DNA of 35,394 bases from Candidatus Dormiibacterota bacterium. GTDB lineage: Bacteria; Chloroflexota; Dormibacteria; Aeolococcales; Aeolococcaceae. The position numbers and the translations under genes were made by a program. Of this stretch, positions 9,295 through 34,638 are shown piece after piece. Location: contig PKWB01000112.1 of the NCBI GenBank assembly GCA_003131685.1, forward strand, positions 179 through 35,572, in the 5' to 3' direction. The notes below the pieces were generated by a model. The model was given only the letters and a program-made list of their open reading frames with translations. It was not told the origin of the DNA and did no database searches. Positions within the stretch are counted from its first letter, which is position 1, and each line of letters begins with the position of its first letter.

Positions 9295-9302
9295 ACGCCC
9301 CG

Positions 9303-9451
9303 GTTGTCCCCAGCGCTCGATCACTGTCCGTACGACAGTGGGGTGCTGAAGTCGGCCGCTACCCCCGGGGAACCTTCCTCAGAGAGCGGGCAGCGGCAGA
9401 ACGAGGCTCTGCCTCATCTAGCTGTCTGGTAGCTGTCTGGAGGAGCTCTGG
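9303..9451 (+). ncRNA. Candidate structured leader, copy 3 (diverged), upstream of liv operon
   Basis: 5' hairpin CACTGT/ACAGTG followed by GGGGTGCTGAAGTCG (compare copy 1 GGGGTGCCGGGAGTCG); ends with GGAGG 8 nt before a GTG; 149 nt = 138 + an 11-nt exact tandem duplication. Confidence 0.45.
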
Positions 9452-9577
9452 GTGATCCGTGTGGTGTCGCAGCCAATGACGGCGGGGCATGAGTGTCGGC
9501 GTTGTCGCTTCGTATGGGGGCCCCGATCCGGCACGTCCACCCACCGTCCGTTACGACCTAGCCGTCGCTTCACCTGA
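9452..9577 (+). CDS. Short ORF (41 aa) after leader copy 3, possibly translationally coupled to livH
   Basis: GTG 8 nt after GGAGG; TGA 9575-9577, 4 nt before livH ATG at 9582, which lacks its own SD. Confidence 0.35.
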   Translation: MIRVVSQPMTAGHECRRCRFVWGPRSGTSTHRPLRPSRRFT

Positions 9578-15688: not shown

Positions 15689-16036
15689 ATGGACGTCTGG
15701 CCACGCTACCTTCTTTCCGGACATGCGAAGCTGCCGCAGGACGCGGTCGCCCGGTCGGTGTATGAAATTCTCACGGTTGTGGTCACCGTCGATCCCGAGA
15801 CGGGGACGATCCTCGACGTCGGGTGCAGCATGGTGACCCGGCCGGCGCAGGAATTCGTCCATCACCTGCTTCTTGGTGTCTCGCTCGATGACCCTCAACA
15901 ACGCGTCTTCGATCTCTTGCAGAAGTACTACCTGGGGGGATCGCGCAAAGCACTTGCGGCGGCCATTCGAGACCTCTACAATTCATGGGCAGAGCTACGC
16001 ACCGGGACGGCGCAGAACACCCCATCCAGTGCGTAG
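15689..16036 (+). CDS. DUF3870 family protein
   Basis: YLLSGHAKLPQDAVARSVYEILTVVVTVDPETGTILDVGCSMVTRPAQEFVHHLLLGVSL...KYYLGGSRKALAAAIRDLY. Confidence 0.75.
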   Translation: MDVWPRYLLSGHAKLPQDAVARSVYEILTVVVTVDPETGTILDVGCSMVTRPAQEFVHHLLLGVSLDDPQQRVFDLLQKYYLGGSRKALAAAIRDLYNSWAELRTGTAQNTPSSA

Positions 16037-16174
16037 GTCGACGGCGCCGAGCGACTGCCGAAGGGCAGTGGGGTGCCGGGAGTCGAGCTCAGACCTCGGA
16101 GGTCGCAAACCTCGGAGAGCGGTCGAAGGCACCTAGGGCTCCAGATCCGGGTCAACTCGGCTGGAGGATACCGT
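16037..16174 (+). ncRNA. Candidate SD-sequestering structured leader, copy 1, upstream of sucC-like gene
   Basis: About 80-85% identical by hand to 34501-34638(-), with a 43-nt perfect block (16126-16168). Hairpins ACTGCC-GAAG-GGCAGT, GAGGT-CGCAA-ACCTC and CTCCAG-AT-CCGGG-TCAA-CTCGG-CTGGAG, the last covering SD GGAGG (16163-16167). Confidence 0.75.
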
Positions 16175-17320
16175 GTGGCACAGCTCACGGAGCACCTGTC
16201 AAAGGGGCTGCTCGAGCGCTTTAAGGTTCCGATCGGCACTGGGGAGTTAGTCAACAGCTCCGCATCAGCAAGGGCCGCTGCCGCACGAGCCGCCAGCCCT
16301 GTTGCCGTCAAAGCACAGATACCGGTTGGCTCGCGCGGCAGGGCTGGCGCCATCATTCGCGCTGAGAGCCCCATGGATGCCGGCGCAGCCTTTGACATTG
16401 TTACCGGTATCCGCATGGACGGTCTCCAGGCGCATGAGGCTCGGATCGAGCCGTGGCAACGGATACTCGATGAGCTCTACATGGCTGTCTCATTCGATTC
16501 CACCTTGCAAGCCCCTGTGCTGCTCTTCAACCCCTTTGGCGGCGCCGACTTGGAGTCGCACCCCGAGAGCCTGCGCATCATGGCGATTCCCGTTGATCAC
16601 GAGGTGTCGTTCGCATACGTTCGTGAGCACGCGGACCTGAGTGGACTCGCGTCGGCTGCCACTGACTCGCTGGCTACCATCGCACGCGATCTGATTCACG
16701 CATTCTTCGCGCTCGAGGCGCGCATGATCGAGCTCAACCCACTCGGTCAACTCGAGGATGGTGAGTGGATCGCGCTTGACGCTCGTATCGTCCTCGACGA
16801 CAACGCACTGTTCCGCCATCCAGATCTCCAGGGGCTCGTCGGGGCGATGAGCCCTCGTCGAGCGGAGGACATCGTTCGCGAGACGACGCGACTGGAATTC
16901 GTCCCACTGGACGGGTCCATCGCCGTGATCAGCGGCGGAGCCGGCATGACCATGGCGGTGATGGATCTCATCGCTGATCGAGGCGCTTCAGCCGCGTGCT
17001 TCCTCGACTGCAGCGCCGACGTGACGCCACGGGGATATCGTGCGGCGCTCGATCTTGTCTTGAGCATCCCTCGGATCACGAGCATCCTCGTCAGCGTCTT
17101 CGGCGGTCTGACCCGCGTGGATCGGGTTGCCTCCACATTCATCGATCTCCTCGCCGGCACGCCAGTCGAGCTACCGCTGACATTCCGCCTGATGGGGACG
17201 AATTTGCAGGAAGCGGACGACATCCTGGCAAGCGCGGGGCTCGACAACCATCATGTGCTCGAGGCTGCCGTCGAGGCGGCAGTTCGATCGGGGCAACAAT
17301 CGAGGGAGGGCTCTTCGTGA
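16175..17320 (+). CDS. Succinate/malate-CoA ligase beta subunit-like ATP-grasp protein
   Basis: LLERFKVPIGTG, VAVKAQIPVGSRGRAGAI, MIELNPLG...ALDARIVLDDNALFRHPDL; GTG start 7 nt after GGAGG. Confidence 0.82.
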   Translation: MAQLTEHLSKGLLERFKVPIGTGELVNSSASARAAAARAASPVAVKAQIPVGSRGRAGAIIRAESPMDAGAAFDIVTGIRMDGLQAHEARIEPWQRILDELYMAVSFDSTLQAPVLLFNPFGGADLESHPESLRIMAIPVDHEVSFAYVREHADLSGLASAATDSLATIARDLIHAFFALEARMIELNPLGQLEDGEWIALDARIVLDDNALFRHPDLQGLVGAMSPRRAEDIVRETTRLEFVPLDGSIAVISGGAGMTMAVMDLIADRGASAACFLDCSADVTPRGYRAALDLVLSIPRITSILVSVFGGLTRVDRVASTFIDLLAGTPVELPLTFRLMGTNLQEADDILASAGLDNHHVLEAAVEAAVRSGQQSREGSS

Positions 17321-25964: not shown

Positions 25965-27404
25965 TTAGATCAGGGGCTCAGCCTCACGCGTCGCGCTGCG
26001 GGCGGGATCCTCAGGAACTCCAACAATCGCGGGGGTCACTGCCAGCAGCAGAAGCCCCAGAACAAGAAAGATGAGCGGCAACGCGCGCGGGCCGGTCGCG
26101 CTGGTCCCGACAATCGCTGCTGCGATCGTGATCGCAACGATGCCACCGATCTGCCGGAACATGGCTCGCAAGCCAACGATGGCACCAATCTGCGCCGGCA
26201 TCAGCTGGATGTTGGCGTTATTGGACGGCGGACCCGCAATGCCAACGCCGATTCCGGACACCGTGGATGACACGGCGAGCCACGCGAACGCCGAAAGCCC
26301 ATGCGGCGGAGTCGCAAGCATGATCAGCCCCGCAGCCGAAACCACGAACCCGACCGCCATGGGAAGTCTGTAGCCGAACCGGCGGATCACCAGCACCGAT
26401 GTCAGCGCTGCCAAGACGGCCATGACGCCTGCTCGTATCGCGAGGAGCGCGCCCGCCTCGAGCACCGGCATCCCAAACGTGACCTGCGCATAGAGCGGGA
26501 CGAGGCTGAAGATGCCGAAGATTCCAGCACCGTAGAGCAGATTGATGCCATTCACCAGCGCAAACGAGCGCTGCCTGAGCAGCACTGCGGGCAGGATCGG
26601 CAACGACGCGTGCCGCTGCCGGACAAAGAACATCGCCCCGAGCACGATCGCAGTACCCAGCAACGCGAACGGCGTGAGGGTCAGGGTGGTGGAGCGGCCG
26701 ATCTCGCCGATCCCCAGCATGAGCGCCAGTATCGAGAGGCACATCAGCACAGCACCAGGCACATCCACCCGCAATCGCCCGGGCTGCGCCGGCGGGTCGG
26801 CCGGTACGAGCCTCGCGAGCAAGACCATGAGCAGGATCCCAATCGGGACATTGATGAAGAAGATGAACCGCCATGAGAAGTAGGTGACGATGACACCCCC
26901 CACAGCGGGTCCGATCAAAGCCCCCAGTGGATAGATGCTGGTCATGAGTCCGATCGGCCGGTCTCTCTCCGAGCCGTAGAGATCTGAGACGACCCCGGTG
27001 ACTGACGGAACCAGTCCACCGCCGCCGAGCGCCTGGACGAAGCGAAAGCCGATCAGCTCGTAAATGTTGGTCGAAAGGCCGCACAGCAGCGACGCACCGG
27101 TGAAGATCGAGATGAAGATGAAGAACATTCGCTTGCGTCCCAATGCGTCGCTCAGCCGACCGGCGATCGGCAGGGCGGTCACCGAACCGAGTTGGTACGC
27201 AGAGATCGTCCATGCACTCCAATCGACCGTCGCACGAAGGTCTGTACTGATGGCGTCGAGTGCCGTGGCGACAATGGTGATGTCGATGGAGATCATGAGC
27301 AGCGCCAGCGACATACCAGCGAAGACCAGGCCGCGCGAGCGTTTCGCTCGCCGGACTACGACTGCCGGCTCAACCATTCCCGTGCCAGGTTTGGGGTCCT
27401 GCAA
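25965..27404 (-). CDS. MFS transporter, DHA2/EmrB-like
   Basis: LALLMISIDITIVATALDAI...WSAWTISAYQLGSVTALPIAGRLSDALGRKRMF. Start may be 27377. Confidence 0.88.
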   Translation of the reverse strand: MQDPKPGTGMVEPAVVVRRAKRSRGLVFAGMSLALLMISIDITIVATALDAISTDLRATVDWSAWTISAYQLGSVTALPIAGRLSDALGRKRMFFIFISIFTGASLLCGLSTNIYELIGFRFVQALGGGGLVPSVTGVVSDLYGSERDRPIGLMTSIYPLGALIGPAVGGVIVTYFSWRFIFFINVPIGILLMVLLARLVPADPPAQPGRLRVDVPGAVLMCLSILALMLGIGEIGRSTTLTLTPFALLGTAIVLGAMFFVRQRHASLPILPAVLLRQRSFALVNGINLLYGAGIFGIFSLVPLYAQVTFGMPVLEAGALLAIRAGVMAVLAALTSVLVIRRFGYRLPMAVGFVVSAAGLIMLATPPHGLSAFAWLAVSSTVSGIGVGIAGPPSNNANIQLMPAQIGAIVGLRAMFRQIGGIVAITIAAAIVGTSATGPRALPLIFLVLGLLLLAVTPAIVGVPEDPARSATREAEPLI

Positions 27405-27440: not shown

Positions 27441-27794
27441 TCACCGGTGCGGCCAATCCGCGGCGGTCAGGATCTCCGCCTGACGGGGAAAGACTTTCGC
27501 CATGAGGACGTGGTGCACCTCCGGGTCTGAGTCGTCACAGCAATCCGAGAGGACCTTGAGCCCGTAGTCACGATCCGCCGCCTCTCTGAGCGTCGAGAGC
27601 ACAACGCCGCTGGTGGCGATGCCGGCAAGCACCAGCGTACTGACGTCGTTGGCTCGGAGCACAACCTCGAGATCGCTCCCCGCGAACGCGCTGACACGTC
27701 GCTCGGTCACGATGATGTCGCCGGACCGCGGGGCGACTGCCGGGACGATCTGCGCGGCCATCACGCCATCGGGCGCCATAGTGAGCAGCCTCAT
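27441..27794 (-). pseudogene. N-terminally truncated isochorismatase-like (cysteine hydrolase) remnant
   Basis: Only the C-terminal part, VAPRSGDIIVTERRVSAFAGSDLEVVLR...AGIATSGVVLSTLREAADRDYGLKVLSDCCDDSDPEVHHVLMAKVFPRQAE; no N-terminal DxQ segment, K->E in the vTKRRvSAF motif. Confidence 0.6.
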
Positions 27795-27829
27795 CTCGGG
27801 TTCGCCGCGCTCCAGACAGCCACTGGCAC

Positions 27830-27967
27830 CTGACTACCTCCACGCGTTCCGAACGACGATGGAGCGTCGGACACCGCCGCCCGGTGGAGAGGAGGGCTCC
27901 TCTGGGGCGGTGGCTTGCTCCCAACACCCACCTGCCGTCAGGCAGTCGTAGAGGTGTCGGCGGCGAC
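27830..27967 (-). ncRNA. Candidate structured leader, copy 4, upstream of isochorismatase-like/MFS operon
   Basis: 138 nt from GTCG to GTG, as in copies 1 and 2; CGACTGCC-TGAC-GGCAG hairpin, GGTGTTGGGAG, AGAGGA-GCCC-TCCTCT hairpin, CTCCA...TGGAGG terminal stem, GGAGG 7 nt before GTG. Confidence 0.6.
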
Positions 27968-27973
27968 CGGACT

Positions 27974-28002
27974 ACTCTACCGTCGGCTCAAGTGGTCGTC
28001 AA
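27974..28002 (-). promoter_or_regulatory. Putative sigma70-like promoter (TTGACG-17-TAGAGT) for leader copy 4
   Basis: Reverse strand TTGACG (28002-27997), TAGAGT (27979-27974); predicted TSS coincides with leader start about 27967. Confidence 0.55.
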
Positions 28003-28011
28003 GCGAGCGAC

Positions 28012-28794
28012 CTATCGTCCCGCGACGACACGATTGCGCAGGACGCCAATCCCGCTGATCTCGACCTCAACCGTGTCACCCACCTTCATGTTCGCCGGGA
28101 GCCCATCGGTTCCCATCCACATGACGTCACCGGGTTCTATCGTGACGTACTTGGTCAGCTCGCTGACGTAGGTTGCGACGTCGAAAATCATGTTCCCCGT
28201 GGCGAACTCGTCCATGACAATCCCATTGAGCCTGACGGTCGTCGTCATGTCGCTCGGATCCAACCCCGTTACGATCCACGGACCCATCGGCTTGAACGTA
28301 TCCGCGTTCTTCGCTCGCCACAGTGTGCGGTCACTTGCCTGCCACGTTCGCTCAGTGACGTCGTTGCCGATGGTCCAACCAAGGATGCAATCGAGTGCCT
28401 CGTCCCTGGAGACGTGCTTCGCTCGCTTCCCGAACACGGCAACCAACTCACCCTCATACTGAAACTCCTCCCCCGAGTCACCGGGCTTGACGATGTCGTC
28501 GTCGTGTGCAATCAGCGCGTTGTTTGCGCGATAGCCGATATCCGGCTTCTCGGGAAACACGGGGGGCCGGCCGAGCAAGCTGGCTCGCCGGATGACGTGG
28601 TCGGCGTAGTTGAGGCCGATACAGAAGAACGTCTTCGGTATCACCGGCACGAGCAGCTTCGTCTTGGGCAGGTCATGGCTCACCGAAGAAATCGTGTTCT
28701 CGCCGAAGAGATCTCCCTGCAATTCACGAATCCGATCGCCGTCCACCAGGCCATACGCGACCCTGCCATCGACCTCGAACCGACACCAAATCAT
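28012..28794 (-). CDS. Fumarylacetoacetate hydrolase family protein
   Basis: FFCIGLNYADHV, EFQYEGELVAVFGKRAKHVSRDEALDCILGWTIGNDVTER, EPGDVMWMGTDGLP. Confidence 0.9.
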   Translation of the reverse strand: MIWCRFEVDGRVAYGLVDGDRIRELQGDLFGENTISSVSHDLPKTKLLVPVIPKTFFCIGLNYADHVIRRASLLGRPPVFPEKPDIGYRANNALIAHDDDIVKPGDSGEEFQYEGELVAVFGKRAKHVSRDEALDCILGWTIGNDVTERTWQASDRTLWRAKNADTFKPMGPWIVTGLDPSDMTTTVRLNGIVMDEFATGNMIFDVATYVSELTKYVTIEPGDVMWMGTDGLPANMKVGDTVEVEISGIGVLRNRVVAGR

Positions 28795-33315: not shown

Positions 33316-34323
33316 TCAGACGTTGACCGCAACAGCCGCGATCGAACCGATGTCCACGGTGCCGATCTCGCTGAGCACCTCACGAGCGTCCGCCATGTCG
33401 AGCTCCGAAGCGGCGCTGATCGGGGCGCGGACCGGGCCCCCCGCCATTCCCAAGAGCTCGGTGATGTATTTGACGAGGGCGACATTATGCCCACCCCTAT
33501 TGACAAACCGGTTGTGCAGTCGGTTCGCAGCCCAGAGGATGGGTCGTAGTGCAGCCGCTGCATTCTCCACGTTCCCGGCCTTGAGCGCGGATGCGAAGTG
33601 CTCGCAATACGGGAAACGCGTGTTCTGGACGTAGAAGGGCCGCGAACTTCCGAGCAGGACCGGCGGTACGTGCGACGTGCCGAAGGTCGCCAATCCAAAG
33701 AGGGTGTACTCCTCGAGCGGACAGCTGACCACGATGGTCTCGCCGACTGCGGAGAGCATGTCCGCATATCCGCTGAGGCTTCGCGACGCCTCCTTGAGGC
33801 CGCTGAATGTATCGATAGCGGCCATTCGGGTGGCGAGCTGTGGCGTGATGTAGAAGCCCACCTCCGACACCGTCGTGCTGTATGAGCAGATCGCGAGATC
33901 CGAGACTTCTGCGACGCTCTCGAAGTAGCTGAGGACGCCCGCGTCATCTCGGGAACCGTAGTACGGAGGCCACAGCATCAAGGCGTCGGCACCGCTGCGC
34001 TCAGCGGATCGCGCCAGTTCCTGCGAGTCTCTCGCGCATGTGCTGGTCACCCCCACCATTACCTTGAGGCGACCAGCGGCAGCATCAACTACCGTTTCCG
34101 CAATCAGTTTCCTCTCGTCAAGGGTCAGGGTCCAGAACTCCTGATAGTTGGACCCAACGTAGAGTCCGGTGACTCCAGGAATCTGCAGGCTCAGTTCAAC
34201 GTTACGACGCAATCCGTCGACATCAATGGTTCCGTCAGCGCTGTAAGGCGTCGTGACGATCAGCAAGTATCCGGAGATACTGCGCAGCCACGCCTTGGCT
34301 TCCGATCTCGAGTATTCAGCCAC
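33316..34323 (-). CDS. Dihydrodipicolinate synthase/N-acetylneuraminate lyase family aldolase
   Basis: VTTPYSADGTIDVDGLRRNVELSLQIPGVTGLYVGSNYQEFWTLTLDERKLIAETVVDAAAGRLKVMVGV. Confidence 0.85.
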   Translation of the reverse strand: MAEYSRSEAKAWLRSISGYLLIVTTPYSADGTIDVDGLRRNVELSLQIPGVTGLYVGSNYQEFWTLTLDERKLIAETVVDAAAGRLKVMVGVTSTCARDSQELARSAERSGADALMLWPPYYGSRDDAGVLSYFESVAEVSDLAICSYSTTVSEVGFYITPQLATRMAAIDTFSGLKEASRSLSGYADMLSAVGETIVVSCPLEEYTLFGLATFGTSHVPPVLLGSSRPFYVQNTRFPYCEHFASALKAGNVENAAAALRPILWAANRLHNRFVNRGGHNVALVKYITELLGMAGGPVRAPISAASELDMADAREVLSEIGTVDIGSIAAVAVNV

Positions 34324-34368: not shown

Positions 34369-34500
34369 TCAAGTTGCCTCCACTGGTCGACCTGGGTCGA
34401 GTGGCAGCGCCACGGGGTGTGGTCCGGGGGCGCCAGCGCTCACTGGGGCGTTTGAGCGCTCAAGGAGACGATCCAAAACACGCCCTGCCAGTTGCACCAC
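34369..34500 (-). pseudogene. 43-aa ORF resembling the N-terminus of the sucC-like gene at 16175 (remnant)
   Basis: VVQLAGRVLDRLLERSNAPVSAG... versus VAQLTEHLSKGLLERFKVPIGTG...; GTG 7 nt after GGAGG, same geometry as 16175. Confidence 0.5.
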
Positions 34501-34638
34501 ACTGCGTCCTCCAGCCGAGTTGACCCGGATCTGGAGCCCTAGGTGCCTTTGACCGTTCTCCGAGGTTTACGCCTCGCAGGTCTGAGCTCGACTCCCGACA
34601 CCTCTCTGCCCAGCGAGCAGTCGGACGGTGCCTTCGAC
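34501..34638 (-). ncRNA. Candidate SD-sequestering structured leader, copy 2
   Basis: Same 138-nt length as copy 1; 43-nt identical block at 34507-34549; hairpins CTGCTC-GCT-GGGCAG, CGAGG-CGTAAA-CCTCG and CTCCAG...CTGGAG preserved with compensating changes. Confidence 0.75.

Follow-up and report, generated by a model that had tools for sequence, protein, structure and literature searches.

The question raised by this locus is whether a structured RNA leader lies at positions 27830-27967 of the DNA analysed here, to what family it would belong, and what it might do. The window is a stretch of 35,394 nucleotides from Candidatus Dormiibacterota bacterium, the genome of which is a 3.78 Mb draft in 210 contigs, about 76% complete. 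The original prediction placed here a leader with its own promoter, the third and a diverged member of a family held under structural constraint. The surroundings are those of a catabolic cluster. Besides the genes described below, it encodes malate synthase A, MaoC-type and mesaconyl-CoA-hydratase-like proteins, a TPP enzyme, RraA-like and MmgE/PrpD proteins, a PEP-mutase-like protein, an acyl-CoA dehydrogenase, an AMP ligase, a DUF6282 protein, a relative of isopropylmalate dehydrogenase and an FAA hydrolase. This gene content suggests that the cluster may break down a branched or hydroxylated acid via CoA esters, glyoxylate being one of the products. Past the window, an IclR-like regulator gene (L100:6757-7581, plus strand; family assigned by reading only) is divergent from the continuing catabolic operon.

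Copies of the leader

All of the strings that had been named for the element at 27830-27967 (copy 3, or e3) are present on the minus strand at their places. It carries CGACTGCC-TGAC-GGCAG, then GGTGTTGGGAG, and also AGAGGA-GCCC-TCCTCT; CTCCA (27865-27861) stands opposite TGGAGG (27842-27837), and GGAGG lies 7 nt upstream of GTG (27829). The GTG is where it was said to be, but it starts a 12-codon ORF (GTG...TGA, VPVAVWSAANPR; 27791-27829, minus strand) and not the isochorismatase gene; the stop of this ORF overlaps the next ATG (ATGA). The isochorismatase-family gene itself (27441-27794, minus strand) matches Pfam PF00857 at profile positions 71-175 only and, being without about 70 N-terminal profile positions, represents a gene remnant or else a short form. 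Downstream of it is an MFS transporter gene (25965-27404, minus strand). ORFs overlapping e3 have no Pfam match.

The promoter proposed for e3 has a good -35/-10 pair, TTGACG (28002-27997) and TAGAGT (27979-27974) separated by a 17 nt spacer (27974-28002, minus strand; 9/12 consensus matches). It is the sole sigma-70-like site in 27700-28200, where shuffled sequences lead one to expect 0.0, and it is a plausible promoter with a predicted transcription start. In the same scan around all four copies of the leader, such a site was found for e3 only, and copies 1 and 2 have none. The distance of 138 nt from transcription start to GTG, which had been presented as common to the family, therefore rests on a start site predicted from a promoter that is absent at copies 1 and 2; it is approximately the extent of the conserved element, and the covariance-model match to e3 spans 27824-27974.

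Three family members had been claimed, and the count is now four. Copy 1 (e1; 16037-16174, plus strand) lies behind the gene for a DUF3870 protein (15689-16033, plus strand) and immediately before a succinate-CoA-ligase-beta-like gene (16175-17320, plus strand), the product of which falls under the curated cut-offs of the named families. Copy 2 (e2; 34501-34638, minus strand) is 88% identical to e1 over 132 nt and is followed by a 43-codon ORF (34369-34500, minus strand) and then by a DHDPS-family gene (33316-34323, minus strand) with its own AAGGAGG. The start of the 43-codon ORF resembles that of the CoA-ligase gene behind e1 (33/60 bases), and blastp gives no significant match; this ORF may encode a leader peptide or represent a truncated duplicate. 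Copy 4 (e4; 9301-9451, or about 9300-9460, plus strand) is new. It was discovered by a local-alignment scan of the contig, as the top non-self match of both e1 and e3, and precedes an ABC transporter operon of the branched-chain-amino-acid type. The 41-codon ORF behind it (9452-9577, plus strand) ends 4 nt before the ATG (9582) of a livH-like permease gene, the start of which has no evident Shine-Dalgarno (SD) sequence. An 11-bp tandem repeat (TAGCTGTCTGG x2; 9419-9440, plus strand) lies just upstream of the SD of e4, GGAGGAG (9439-9445), and because of this repeat the 3' part of e4 is longer than that of the other copies.

That e3 belongs with the others is established by several measures of unequal weight. 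Global alignment of e3 with copies 1 and 2 gives scores of 78 and 69. Shuffled sequences average about 41 and 39 and reach at most 71 and 69, so that these scores by themselves would be borderline. The motif GACTGC-N4..8-GCAG-N1..4-GGTG-NN-GGGAG, taken from the first 30 nt, has three matches in the window and none in 100 shuffles, and with its second gap set to 3 it occurs just at the places of the three copies among 400 genomes of the phylum; the pattern was drawn from these same three copies, however, so these counts speak of rarity and not of significance, and leave-one-out tests weigh more. A sequence profile of copies 1, 2 and 4 finds e3 as its best new match (14.8 bits, E 0.0056; next background 9.4), against a background that included loci fetched for their resemblance to copies 1 and 3. 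A profile of copies 1, 2 and 3 recovers e4 from sequence alone (26.1 bits, E 1.9e-6), and a profile of copies 3 and 4 recovers both copy 1, with E 0.00085, and copy 2, with E 0.087. None of 1000 dinucleotide shuffles of e3 or e4 reaches the real profile score. A covariance model (R2) was built from copies 1, 2 and 4; its structure was drawn after e3 had been seen but was restricted to helices with support from copies 1 and 2. It finds e3 at 40.1 bits (E 3e-7), the next match on the 96-kb contig having 11.2 bits. With base pairs removed from the same alignment (R3), e3 scores 23 bits (E 6e-6), and structure therefore contributes about 17 bits to its recognition. The original prediction of a diverged third member under structural constraint is borne out by these models.

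There is also evidence of selection on the leader itself. Between e1 and e2 the leader is identical at 120/139 positions (86%), and at 45/48 over the last 48 nt, whereas the flanks are only about 50% identical (36/68 upstream, for 60 nt, and 15/30 for the first 30 coding bases), from which it follows that the leader is what selection has acted on. Recent duplication cannot, on these sequences, give such a pattern, and constraint on the leader can.

The distribution of the family is narrow, its rarity being relative to the genomes scanned. In this genome a covariance model (R1) finds the four copies only, the next match having 15 bits (E 1.6), and no further copy at a convincing score is present in the genomes scanned from the phylum (400), the family (32) and the class (110). 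In relatives the model has weak matches of 18.9-24.8 bits, which coincide with long ORFs and are without most of the model or its pairs; these were set aside as chance, as was a blastn match (E 8e-7) in one relative to 27852-27802, which lies inside an SDR-type gene on the other strand. Nine exact matches to the motif in viral contigs are near the estimated expected number, and none scored with the model; a plasmid search gave short matches only. Relatives of the CoA-ligase gene led to no further leaders: those in the class are 30-38% identical, apart from one 50% match on a fragment, which its upstream gene abuts, and two distant proteobacterial loci yielded none.

The shared fold

The four copies can be given a common fold (alignment A2) with two upstream domains and a helix that takes in the SD. 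In e3 the first hairpin, P1/P1a (27923-27958, minus strand), consists of GACACC (27958-27953) paired with GGTGTT (27928-27923) around CTGCC (27945-27941) and GGCAG (27936-27932). The outer stem originally put forward for e3, TGTTGG/CCGACG, gives way to this better-supported pairing, which aligns with GGCGCC/GGTGCC of copy 1. The counterparts in e4 are AGCGCT (9312-9317)/GGTGCT (9342-9347) for P1 and ACTGTC (9323-9328)/GACAGT (9334-9339) for P1a. The six pairs of P1 are standard in 24/24 cells across the copies, two of them with double changes, and the outer two vary between G-C, G-U and A-U; in P1a, a C-G pair is U-A in copy 4. This hairpin is compact, its strands CGACTGC/GGCAG being constant and its loop varying, and it is the best-conserved part of the leader.

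The second domain, P2 (27873-27914 in e3, minus strand), comprises P2a (GCCACCGCCC/GGGCGGCGGU), P2b (AGAGGA-GCCC-UCCUCU) and a 3' bulge, CCACC. P2a is a ten-pair helix in both e3 and e4, where it is formed by GCCGCTACCC (9355-9364) and GGGCAGCGGC (9388-9397), in matching registers, and its inner four pairs share their register with GACC/GGTC in copies 1 and 2. C-G in e3 is replaced by U-A in e4, and A-U in e1 and e2 by C-G in e3 and e4. P2b is GAGG/CCTC enclosing a 6-7 nt loop, with its register shifted in e3. The last helix, P3 (27837-27865 in e3, minus strand), pairs the anti-SD strand CTCCA with the SD strand TGGAGG in the same alignment columns as in copies 1 and 2, and that of e4 fails to align column by column with the others.

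As for the strength of this fold, 85% of the cells are paired in standard fashion, against 35-44% when the partners are slid, and its covariation score exceeds those of all 500 shuffles; it has six pairs with double changes, a number that is reached by 22/500 shuffles. The alignment consists of four sequences, all from one genome and two of them closely similar; the covariation is accordingly modest, and the support for the fold may be called good but not overwhelming. Energy folding yields P1/P1a in copies 1, 2 and 4, and in copy 3 it yields P2a; other folds of full-length e3 and e4 are lower in energy than the shared one, and for this reason minimum-energy folds of single copies are not relied on. 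What is present, beyond chance, is four homologous copies of a leader with a common fold, and it is by homologous copies with conserved secondary structure that a cis-regulatory structured leader RNA is recognized. Their placement before an SD and a start codon fits a transcribed 5' leader.

No family of Rfam 15 matches anywhere in the window at the gathering score, nor does a relaxed search around copies 1 and 3, with E allowed to reach 10, give a match, e2 and e4 being covered at the gathering level only. The leader is new as a family, although of a known kind, that of structured and probably cis-regulatory RNAs. Like the candidate RNAs of comparative genomics, among them the pan and Chloroflexi-1 motifs from Chloroflexi (PMC2864571), it was found by shared structure before related genes, with its function unknown at discovery; those of the candidate RNAs that are in Rfam 15 give no match here.

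Control of translation as the proposed function

The copies sit just before the ribosome-binding sites of the transporter, CoA-ligase and DHDPS-family operons and of the isochorismatase/MFS unit. We consider it probable, with some reserve, that the four structured leaders jointly control these transcription units of one catabolic cluster, and that they do so on translation through the binding of an inducer. All four end in an SD of the GGAGG type ahead of a start codon, and intrinsic terminators were found near none of them; control of translation is therefore likelier than attenuation. The SD lies opposite CTCC in copies 1-3 and opposite GGCTC in copy 4. Its predicted pairing is 0.98 in e1, 0.99 in e2, 1.0 in e3 and 0.81 in e4, values that are reached by 12.5%, 8%, 0.5% and 45% of shuffled leaders respectively, and only e3 (shuffle mean 0.72) stands out from the shuffles.

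In the default state, the SD would be held in helix P3 by the upstream CTCC (GGCTC in copy 4). The P1/P2 part would bind a pathway inducer, either the substrate or an intermediate, upon which the conserved GGGAG that follows P1, or else the strand following P2, would re-pair and free the SD. The alternative pairings that might serve as the switch can be seen in the sequence: GGTGYC in copies 1 and 2 is able to pair within P1 or with GGCACC behind P2, and GGGAG is able to pair with the same CTCC that masks the SD, which makes both of them candidates. Once freed, the site would drive the short ORF in copies 3 and 4, and since each of these ORFs stops on the start of the real gene or shortly ahead of it, translation would be handed on to that gene by coupling. 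A small molecule is our first choice of inducer and a protein the second. The leaders resemble translational riboswitches that sequester the SD, such as yjdF and preQ1, in having a structured upstream part, an SD opposite a complementary strand and no terminator; they differ in having no Rfam match and in occurring as four copies in one cluster of one genome. The more specific proposal of a new orphan riboswitch class, sensing a substrate or intermediate of the cluster and turning on uptake together with several enzyme units via translation, is a possibility that we hold only tentatively.

Alternative readings

A trans-acting RNA-binding protein could instead recognize P1/P1a of all four leaders and open or block the ribosome site, which we regard as rather unlikely. 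In its favour, the leader is most conserved in the compact P1/P1a hairpin, where the strands CGACTGC/GGCAG are fixed and the loop is variable, and the ANTAR proteins, which serve several leaders of the eut cluster (PMC3369931), are a precedent for a single regulator acting on more than one transcript of a cluster. As there, several transcripts of one catabolic cluster share an RNA motif suited to coordinated control. However, the ANTAR targets recognized by EutV are two small hairpins that precede an intrinsic terminator and have A1 and G4 in their hexaloops (PMC3369931), whereas e1-e4 are without terminators and neither their loops (CGAAGG, CTGACG, TCGCTGG and CCGTACG) nor those of P2b have the conserved A1 and G4; their identity as ANTAR targets was accordingly rejected. 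A search of the genome (76% complete) found no ANTAR protein, and the controls likewise gave none. The cluster proteins, scanned with Pfam, show no known RNA-binding domain; the DUF3870 protein is a candidate binder of P1/P1a by position only.

The inverted repeat ACTGYC-N4..5-GRCAGT might also be a DNA operator for a transcription factor, the remainder of the leader being sequence inherited by duplication. The near-perfect palindromes of e1 (ACTGCC-GAAG-GGCAGT) and e4 (ACTGTC-CGTAC-GACAGT) could be so read, and the IclR-like protein encoded further along the contig at L100:6757-7581 (by reading) would be a possible partner. Against this, P1 lies outside the palindrome, across an asymmetric internal loop, and still pairs in 24/24 cells; P2a covaries 40-60 nt away; and distant base pairs contribute the 17 bits mentioned above, which makes an operator improbable. 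Weakest of all is the view that a promoter-leader segment was copied during reshuffling of operons and that the copies are no longer functional, the isochorismatase gene without its N-terminal profile positions (copy 3) and the 43-codon ORF that begins like the CoA-ligase gene, though blastp is not significant (copy 2), being debris: the identity of 86% within the e1 and e2 leaders against about 50% in their flanks already makes this unlikely for that pair, and with compensatory changes among all four copies we give it very little credence.

The best reading of e1-e4 is that of a cluster-specific cis-regulatory RNA, possibly a riboswitch, that gates translation. Should the leader prove to sense a metabolite, a single RNA class would here serve four or more transcription units of the same catabolic cluster, a probable transporter included, which is rarely seen, and the ligand would point to the compound that the cluster degrades. 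Even when other species carry no copies, paralogues within one genome can bring a rare RNA family to light.
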